A stretch of DNA of 64,000 nucleotides, taken from Silvimonas iriomotensis (GTDB taxonomy: Bacteria; Pseudomonadota; Gammaproteobacteria; Burkholderiales; Chitinibacteraceae). Position 1 is the stretch's first letter; every line of letters starts with the position of its first letter. Shown here one piece after another: positions 26,588-28,848 of this stretch. Position numbers and translations under genes: made by a program. The stretch lies in the NCBI RefSeq assembly GCF_014645535.1, contig NZ_BMLX01000001.1, positions 1,047,169-1,111,168 on the forward strand, read 5' to 3'. Below the pieces are notes generated by a model. The model saw only the letters and a program-made list of their open reading frames with translations. It made no database searches and had not been told where the DNA came from.

Positions 26588-27997
26588 ATGGCCACCCGCA
26601 AAACGAAGAAAAGCCAGGAAACGAAGCTGTTCGTGCTGGATACCAACGTGATGATGCACGATCCCACGTCGATCTTCCGGTTTGAGGAACACGATCTCTT
26701 TCTGCCGATGATGACGCTGGAAGAACTGGACGGAAACAAGAAAGGCATGACGGAAGTTGCCCGCAACGCCCGTCAGACCAGCCGGTTTATCGAAGAATTG
26801 ATCGCCGGCCGCGAAGAAGACCTGCACGCCGGGGTCTCGCTGGAAGACGCCAGCAAGGGGCAGGCATCGGGCCGTTTGTTCCTGCAGACCGAAGCCATCA
26901 CCAGCGTGCTGCCCTCGCAACTGCCCATGGGCAAGGCTGACAACCAGATCCTGGGCGTAGTGCACCATCTGCAGCAGATGCAGCCCAAGCGGCAGGTCAT
27001 CCTGGTTTCCAAAGACATCAACATGCGCATCAAGGCGCGTGCACTGGGTCTGGCGGCGGAAGACTACTTCAACGACAAAGTGCTGGAAGATACCGATCTT
27101 CTGTACACCGGCATGCGTGAGATCGACCAGACGTTCTGGGAGAAAAACGGCAAGGATCTGGAGAGCTGGCAAGAAGGCGGCCGCAGCTACTGGCGCCTGA
27201 AAGGCCCGGAAGTCATCGACCTCTACCCCAATCAGTTGTTGTTCCAGCAAGGCGACCGCCCCATGGCCGCGCGCGTGGTGGAACTGGAAGGCAAATCCGC
27301 CAAGATCGAGAGCCTGAAGGATTACTCGCACCAGAAAAACGCCATCTGGGGCGTGACCGCGCGCAACCGCGAGCAGAACTTTGCGCTCAACATGCTGATG
27401 AACCCGGATGTGGATTTTGTCTCGCTACTGGGTCAGGCCGGCACCGGTAAAACCTTGCTGACGCTGGCAGCGGGCCTTGTGCAGACACTGGAATCCAAGA
27501 TTTATTCCGAAATCATCATGACCCGCGTGACCGTGCCGGTGGGCGAAGACATCGGCTTCTTGCCGGGCACCGAAGAAGAAAAGATGCAGCCGTGGATGGG
27601 CGCGCTGGAAGACAACCTGGACGTCCTCAACCAGACCGACGCCGAAGCAGGCGACTGGGGCCGCGCCGCCACGCGTGACCTGATCCGCAGCCGTATCAAG
27701 GTGAAGTCACTTAACTTCATGCGCGGGCGCACTTTCCTGAACAAGTTCCTGATCATTGATGAGGCGCAAAACCTCACGCCCAAGCAGATGAAAACGCTGA
27801 TCACCCGCGCCGGCCCTGGCACCAAAGTGGTGTGTCTGGGCAATATCAGCCAGATTGATACGCCCTACCTGACCGAGGGTTCATCCGGCCTGACTTATGT
27901 GGTGGACCGCTTCAAATCCTGGACCCACTCCGGCCACATCACCTTGCAGCGGGGCGAGCGTTCAAGACTGGCGGATTACGCCGCAGAAACGCTCTGA
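26588..27997 (+). CDS. PIN-PhoH family ATPase (PhoH2-like ribonuclease/helicase)
   Basis: A 469-residue fusion of an N-terminal PIN nuclease domain (KLFVLDTNVMMHDPTS at about 13-28, with further acidic residues in TLEELDGNKKG and VSKDINMRIKA) and a C-terminal PhoH P-loop ATPase. Walker A is GQAGTGKT at about 281-288, Walker B is FLIIDEAQN, and GERS is near the end. PhoH2 proteins unwind and cleave RNA in vitro. AAGGAG lies six bases before ATG 26588. No vapB-like antitoxin-type partner adjoins it. A terminator follows. Confidence 0.93.
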   Translation: MATRKTKKSQETKLFVLDTNVMMHDPTSIFRFEEHDLFLPMMTLEELDGNKKGMTEVARNARQTSRFIEELIAGREEDLHAGVSLEDASKGQASGRLFLQTEAITSVLPSQLPMGKADNQILGVVHHLQQMQPKRQVILVSKDINMRIKARALGLAAEDYFNDKVLEDTDLLYTGMREIDQTFWEKNGKDLESWQEGGRSYWRLKGPEVIDLYPNQLLFQQGDRPMAARVVELEGKSAKIESLKDYSHQKNAIWGVTARNREQNFALNMLMNPDVDFVSLLGQAGTGKTLLTLAAGLVQTLESKIYSEIIMTRVTVPVGEDIGFLPGTEEEKMQPWMGALEDNLDVLNQTDAEAGDWGRAATRDLIRSRIKVKSLNFMRGRTFLNKFLIIDEAQNLTPKQMKTLITRAGPGTKVVCLGNISQIDTPYLTEGSSGLTYVVDRFKSWTHSGHITLQRGERSRLADYAAETL

Positions 27998-28020
27998 GCA
28001 CCAGGTGCTACATGCAACGC

Positions 28021-28047
28021 AAAGCGGGCTTCGGCCCGCTTTTTTTA
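28021..28047 (+). terminator. terminator after the PIN-PhoH gene
   Basis: AAAGCGGGC, TTCG loop, GCCCGCTTT, then a seven-T tract. The tetraloop makes it very stable. Confidence 0.9.
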
Positions 28048-28219
28048 TTGCCCGTAAAGTGATCGGCCCCTGCCAAGTGGTCTTTACCTGCGACTGATAT
28101 GCCCCTGCAGCCAGCCGTTTTACCGGTGTCATCCATGACCAATCATGGTGCAAGTGACTGCCTGACTACATGAATCCACAATTGAATTCGTTTTCAAACC
28201 TGTTTTCACAGCATCTTTT

Positions 28220-28259
28220 CAGCTCCGTGACAGCTTTGCTGTCATCCCGTATGGAGCTG
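28220..28259. repeat. nested stem-loop upstream of the 105-residue protein
   Basis: CAGCTCC (28220-28226) pairs with GGAGCTG (28253-28259). Inside it TGACAGC pairs with GCTGTCA around a TTT loop (28228-28244). There is no T tract, so it is not an ordinary terminator. Confidence 0.6.
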
Positions 28260-28401
28260 ACAGACGGTCAAGTGGTATCAGCCGCTATCCCAATAAATGC
28301 GTAAATTTATTTGATAAGGCAAGCATTACGGGGGCTAGCTAAGCAACATACCGACGTGTACGCTGTGCGCTGTCCGGTCGTCAGTACACCCCCGGGGAGG
28401 G

Positions 28402-28417
28402 ACTGGTGCACACCAGT
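28402..28417. promoter_or_regulatory. ACTGGTG-CA-CACCAGT palindrome
   Basis: A perfect seven-base inverted repeat with a two-base centre lies 42 bases before the start of the 105-residue protein gene. It may be a repressor site or part of leader folding. Confidence 0.4.
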
Positions 28418-28458
28418 AGCCGGTTGCGCGACTGTTACAACTACAAGATGGAGGATCA

Positions 28459-28776
28459 ATGCCAACGATCAAGATTCATCGTCAGGGCGCGCTGGGCCGT
28501 CAGCCGCGCATGTTGTTAGATGGACACCCGCTGGGCCACACGGCGCCCGGCCACTGCCTTACCGCTTCACTGCCCCCGGGCCGCCACGTACTGCAGGCCC
28601 AGCTTGACTGGGGCAAAACCCCGCCACTGGTGTTTGACACCGACGCTGAAGAAATGCACTTCACCGTCAAAAGCGCCATGCACGGCTGGCGATTCCTGTT
28701 TGCCCCGTTCTATCTGTTTGCGCCGTATAACGCACTGGTCGTGGAAAAGCAGCAACGTCAGCCGGCGCACCACTGA
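28459..28776 (+). CDS. small conserved protein with PEGA-like beta domain and C-terminal hydrophobic segment
   Basis: A 105-residue protein. Residues 1-70 follow a pattern common in small uncharacterised bacterial proteins: a short beta domain with LLDGHPLGHTAPG, then LPPGRHVLQAQLDWGKTPPL. Residues about 75-92 (WRFLFAPFYLFAPYNAL) could lie in or on a membrane. GGAGG lies six bases before the ATG. It has an unusually long upstream region and its own terminator. Function unknown. Confidence 0.7.
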   Translation: MPTIKIHRQGALGRQPRMLLDGHPLGHTAPGHCLTASLPPGRHVLQAQLDWGKTPPLVFDTDAEEMHFTVKSAMHGWRFLFAPFYLFAPYNALVVEKQQRQPAHH

Positions 28777-28820
28777 TCCGGCCCGCCACTGCGGTTTGAC
28801 GACCACGAATTCCTGAAAGA

Positions 28821-28848
28821 AAAGGCCCGCTTGTGCGGGCCTTTTTTT
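28821..28848. terminator. bidirectional terminator between the small protein and the cupin gene
   Basis: AAAGGCCCGC and GCGGGCCTTT around a TTGT loop, with a T tract on the plus strand and A residues on the other flank. Confidence 0.88.

Follow-up and report, generated by a model that had tools for sequence, protein, structure and literature searches.

What occupies the long gene-free stretch upstream of a small gene in Silvimonas iriomotensis, and could it act as an RNA? The window that we analyzed, by which we mean the whole stretch of 64,000 nucleotides, contains phoH (ending at 27997), its terminator, and, 461 bases after the end of phoH, the ATG of the small gene (28459-28776), followed by a cupin gene on the opposite strand. 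An earlier note on this DNA had reported more than 400 bases without a gene, and indeed only mechanical open reading frames lie within these 461 bases. It had also likened the arrangement to a cis-regulatory RNA or a small RNA gene, of a class that it could not name. A cis-regulatory RNA remains the best reading, but most of the folding stressed in the note is not preserved among relatives. To judge from the aligned sequences, the locus probably holds a real but modest finding: a genus-restricted cis-acting leader RNA, built on a 60-nt element that is mostly other than the features first described.

Gene order and the small protein

The end of phoH, the terminator, the leader, and the small gene are consecutive in the four Silvimonas genomes, and the leader lies at the same position upstream of the small gene in all of them. 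The intrinsic terminator of phoH (28021-28049, forward strand) was detected by a terminator scan as a 9-bp stem followed by a run of T, and the alignments revealed a GC hairpin with a T run at this position in the three other species. Since this terminator sets the leader and the small gene apart from phoH, the small gene is its own unit. A terminator-like hairpin was seen by eye 3' of the small gene (28820-28848, forward strand) and is missing from the list produced by the scan. A search for sigma-70 promoters found none. We ruled out that the leader is coding, or an N-terminal extension of the small protein: the insertions and deletions that separate the aligned leaders have lengths not divisible by three and so exclude coding, and an inspection by eye of the 13 upstream codons found no in-frame ATG, GTG, or TTG.

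The small gene (forward strand) encodes a PEGA/transthyretin-like protein of 105 aa. Its sequence is 89-100% identical within the genus (S. amylolytica has the same protein, and S. terrae one of 92% identity) and 69-71% identical to its relative in the sister genus Amantichitinum (L030), with relatives in 6 of the 43 genomes of the family. Pfam gave a weak match to BiPBP_C (E 3e-4, below the cut-off), and NCBIfam and PHROGs gave none. The predicted structure is all-beta (mean pLDDT 75), with a poorly predicted hydrophobic C-terminal part. A fold search returned no match at E 0.001 or better (best E 6.3e-3), and its weak matches include transthyretin-like and carboxypeptidase-regulatory-like beta folds; the three matches of the sequence profile to solved structures (E 0.19 or worse) were taken as chance. 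Calling the protein PEGA-like, as the earlier note did, is reasonable, although it is not proved.

Conserved blocks in the leader

Conservation across the four species comes in islands, at 28216-28237, 28257-28269, 28305-28325, 28344-28368, and 28375-28434, and in the C/A-rich linker and the Shine-Dalgarno sequence. Invariant columns make up 0-25% of the alignment at 28102-28170, against 85% at 28346-28365 and 70% at 28434-28453; in the small gene, 20-45% of the third codon positions differ between species. The first island (28216-28237, forward strand) reads TTTTCAG-n-T-n-C-n-TGACAG, with 75% of the columns at 28216-28235 invariant in the four species. It has one exact match in the window, where 0.09 are expected with up to 2 mismatches. 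The second (28257-28269, forward strand) reads CTGACnnACGGT(C/G) in the alignments. TTTTCAG-n4-(G/A)TGACAG and then CTGACnnACGGT are conserved along 28216-28269, though the hairpin that spans both in this genome is not. Both blocks are possible operator parts, the first possibly of a promoter, and the conserved sequence of 28216-28269 may be a promoter or an operator.

An ungapped block of 25 nt, CAACATACCGACGTGTACGCTGTGC (28344-28368, forward strand), lies 5' of the stem described in the next section. It is identical in three species and carries 3 substitutions in the fourth. Allowing up to 3 mismatches, it occurs in 4 of the 5 genomes searched, which are the four Silvimonas, with one copy in each. 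We rejected a phage or mobile origin: the pattern derived from this block was absent from the viral contigs searched, and the small protein has no match in PHROGs.

Other short motifs are scattered over the leader. Two sites starting with CAAGTGGT (28074-28090 and 28269-28283) are conserved in three of the four Silvimonas species. The first reads AGTGGTCTTTACC, which we take to be a candidate likeness to the operators of the GntR-type regulators NagR and DasR; counted with up to 2 mismatches, the site pattern occurs 18 times in the window, where 9.3 matches are expected. A short inverted repeat resembling TTGCCAAGGCAA (28310-28323) is perfect in S. amylolytica and in the Silvimonas genome G003, and imperfect here and in S. 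terrae.

A covarying stem upstream of the small gene

The region 28160-28480 as a whole folds with a z of -1.90 (6 of 100 shuffles as good), and for the final 141 bases 195 of 200 shuffles fold as stably or more so (z +1.71); therefore, folding energy alone does not single out the GC-rich part. As far as the aligned sequences tell, what singles it out is the comparison with relatives. In the element at 28375-28434, a 7-bp helix, P1 (5' strand 28375-28381, 3' strand 28428-28434), closes an irregular stem, and a hairpin, P2 (28402-28417; ACTGGT-GCAC-ACCAGT), caps its tip, all on the forward strand. The strands of P1 read CGGTCGT/GCGACTG, with CGGTTGC/GCAACTG in S. terrae and CAGTCGC/GCGACTG in G003; all four species keep the pairing, in which one pair has changed on both sides (C-G to U-A) and two further changes are single-sided. 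P2 is the perfect palindrome of the earlier note, exactly as described there, and its pairing is conserved while its sequence is not, four of its pairs showing double changes.

Over the 14 pairs of P1 and P2 in the four species, 55 of 56 cells (98.2%) are paired and 5 pairs have double changes, counts that lean towards P1 and P2 because the structure was chosen from these same four sequences of one genus. Each count was reached by 0 of 500 shuffles, and slid versions of the structure pair in at most 51.8% of the cells; a fuller version with 19 pairs has 93.4% of cells paired. Column shuffles of alignment columns 50-121 gave z values of -4.08 (default) and -4.86 (ribosum), with 0 of 300 shuffles as good in each case, and the columns of P2 alone gave -6.95 (1 of 300). 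The complete leader of 148 columns is not significant in this test (z -1.1 with 35 of 300 shuffles as good; with ribosum, z -0.43 and 102 of 300), and the 25-nt block has no structure signal of its own (z -0.82, 63 of 300), so the signal is confined to the P1-P2 element. Hence, compensatory base changes for a common structure are found there, in four sequences only. An exhaustive listing of the stems common to the four species has P1 at the top. Ranked beside it is another 7-bp stem with one double change, which T-rich and G-rich runs form through many G-U pairs, and a third common stem, AT-rich, pairs 28306-28312 with the Shine-Dalgarno region.

Folded alone, the element has P1 in its minimum-energy structure in three of the four species; in the remaining one P1 costs 0.6 kcal/mol and six of its seven pairs are already made. 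The stability of the single sequences (mono-shuffle z) is ordinary in two species (-0.11 and -0.36), reaches -1.76 in a third, and is good only in G003 (-3.74). Within the ensemble of the full leader, the probability of P1 is just 0.02-0.035 in this genome; it is low in three of the four species (0.02-0.16) and dominant in G003 (0.85-0.88).

The remaining features of the earlier note fared less well. Its nested hairpin (28220-28259) does exist and is stable in this genome, where 28215-28265 has a folding energy of -23.2 kcal/mol (z -5.74) that 0 of 200 shuffles equal, but it is not kept in relatives: across the four species 73.4% of the cells are paired, the hairpin is broken in the three relatives, and there is no excess of covariation, the count of double changes being reached by 309 of 500 shuffles. 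The AT inverted repeat (28292-28311) exists, but its folding is no better than chance in the single sequence (z -1.12, 29 of 200 shuffles as good) and its comparative support is weak, with 85.7% of cells pairing in the four species and a single double change, a count that 133 of 500 shuffles also attain. As conserved parts of an RNA, these two were thus rejected or found weak on the pairing and shuffle counts. The complementary segments GTGTAC and GTACAC (28357-28362 and 28384-28389) are present, but the alignment shows that their complementarity is lost in the fourth species. A lack of covariation among relatives, which the earlier note named as evidence against its reading, is not what we observed: covariation is present in the GC-rich 28375-28434, but not in the nested hairpin and not convincingly in the AT repeat.

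Distribution and relation to known RNA classes

We built a model of the element, R1, from the four sequences and 14 pairs. Among the 43 genomes of the family, it matched the four Silvimonas genomes once each (E 1e-38 to 2e-34), and three more matches (E 0.20-0.48, in G018, G050, and G021) were taken as chance. The single match among 300 genomes of the order, and again among 369 of the class, was the genome of origin; because stricter filters were applied here and few candidates were scored in each genome, weak relatives of the element could be missed in them. Amantichitinum keeps the small gene and lacks the leader, according to both the alignment and the R1 search. Between its phoH and small gene lies a gene for a 257-aa ParA-like ATPase (L030 1160-1933). 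This gene stands 67 bases before the small gene, an arrangement that suggests an operon. In another genome of the family (G012) we found a ParA-like protein with 64% identity, as well as two proteins distantly related to the small protein.

The leader still fits no known class. Rfam 15 (4227 families) gave no match at the gathering score in the whole window. At E up to 10, the interval 28000-28560 has 9 weak matches, of which eight fall on the phoH terminator (28000-28058) and the ninth at 28185-28208, with none over 28344-28434; the loci of the three relatives have 19 weak matches, all below the gathering score and none over the leader element. A literature search found nothing linking Silvimonas with a riboswitch, and the top papers of a broader search make no mention of the genus.

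The core of the cobalamin riboswitch (RF00174) reads GGGAA-hairpin-...CGCaACTGTnA, with a conserved GGUGnAAnnCC hairpin, and the GGGAG-hairpin-...GC(G/A)ACTGTTA of the leader is superficially like it. However, the ACTG of the leader is half of a helix, the ATG comes within 25 bases, so that no B12-box part lies downstream, and the fourth species has ATTCATC-GAAAA-GATGAAT in place of the hairpin motif. We rejected this candidate, as the likeness is by eye only and the covariance model had no match at the gathering score in the whole window, none at E up to 10 in 28000-28560, and none among the weak matches in the loci of the three relatives. The targets of GcvB-type small RNAs carry a C/A-rich segment before the start codon, and in the leader a conserved ACAAC-n-ACAAG segment directly precedes the ribosome-binding site. 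We rejected control by GcvB, because GcvB itself was found in none of the four Silvimonas genomes by a search whose control recovered it in E. coli. More generally, the leader resembles structured 5' leaders (those of ribosomal-protein genes, riboswitches, and protein-binding leaders) in having a covarying stem near the Shine-Dalgarno sequence of one gene in its own transcription unit. It differs from them in that the element is confined to one genus and one gene, and in that the ribosome-binding site is outside the conserved stem.

Proposed action of the element

We consider it rather likely that 28375-28434, together with the conserved block just upstream, is a structured cis-acting leader RNA of the small gene, restricted to Silvimonas. 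The 3' end of P1 (28434) is 15 nt before the Shine-Dalgarno sequence GGAGG (28450-28454, forward strand; GGGAG in the fourth species), and a C/A-rich linker, TTACAACTACAAG (28435-28447, forward strand), conserved in the four species, leads from P1 to the ribosome-binding site. In models starting at -155 or -135, 11 bases of the linker have a mean unpaired probability of 0.68-0.83, and in the longest model the range is 0.44-0.85. All models leave the Shine-Dalgarno sequence partly paired (mean unpaired probability 0.06-0.34), chiefly to the beginning of the coding sequence. Some folding near the start can therefore be expected whether or not the element is there.

If the element is transcribed, as we infer, the mRNA would carry within its 5' untranslated leader an irregular stem closed by P1 with P2 at its tip, and the end of P1 would leave a C/A-rich single-stranded landing segment ahead of the Shine-Dalgarno sequence. 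The element could in this way present a site near the start for a protein, a small RNA, or a waiting ribosome, and would act in cis on the translation or the stability of the mRNA of the small gene. A transcription-attenuation leader would need an intrinsic terminator between element and gene, and the terminator scan of 28043-28458 found no terminator-like site there. This makes attenuation by termination unlikely and the control of translation or mRNA stability the natural inference.

Alternative explanations

The leader may instead be mainly promoter and operator DNA, with transcription-factor sites at 28216-28237, 28257-28269, and 28344-28368 and incidental hairpins, an explanation that we find possible if rather improbable. 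It accounts for 28216-28235 and 28257-28269, conserved as sequence without conserved pairing, and for the 25-nt block, ungapped and lacking a structure signal, but leaves unexplained why the sequence of P2 changes while its pairing stays and why P1 shows a double change between strands 46 bases apart. Moreover, no regulon is seen for the 25-nt block, since it is single-copy in each Silvimonas genome. An unlikely alternative keeps the RNA and makes it a two-state, riboswitch-like leader, in which CGGT (28375-28378) pairs either with ACCG (28350-28353) in the 25-nt block or with the 3' strand of P1, the choice being made by a ligand or a protein. Folded at minimum energy, the full leader adopts the ACCG/CGGT pairing here and in S. 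amylolytica, whereas the element alone folds with P1, and the low probability of P1 in full context in three of the four species is in line with this. Yet the upstream helix shows no covariation and is broken in G003, where CAGT replaces CGGT and P1 dominates; since G003 cannot form it, such a switch is possible but lacks comparative support.

It seems more unlikely still that a separate small RNA gene, or an RNA acting in trans, stands before the small gene by chance. The long gene-free stretch, the structure, and the single copy would suit it, but about 25 bases, containing no terminator, separate the element from the ATG, which makes the small RNA gene of the earlier note the less likely of its two proposals, and conservation continues unbroken into the ribosome-binding site and the start codon. 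We regard as very improbable that the leader is a remnant of the ParA-like gene. That gene occupies the gap between phoH and the small gene in Amantichitinum, and the best matches of its product in the four Silvimonas genomes have an identity of only 32-33% and lie in other places. However, a comparison of the ParA-like protein with the four leaders gave nothing beyond a 7-residue chance match (E 4.7), and the conserved blocks and compensated pairs argue for a present function.

Implications

The leader element alone leaves the general picture unchanged. One may imagine that a riboswitch-like or protein-sensing class of RNA evolved in Silvimonas where its sister genus has a ParA-like gene, and that a switch between P1 and the upstream pairing controls the small all-beta protein, but we hold this doubtful. 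If real, the cis-acting leader RNA would be undescribed and very young, belonging to a single gene of a single genus. Regulatory RNAs restricted to one lineage easily escape detection because large covariance searches need many diverse sequences. The sister genus, which has the gene and lacks the leader, would offer a clean comparison, with and without the element, for the origin of a regulatory RNA.
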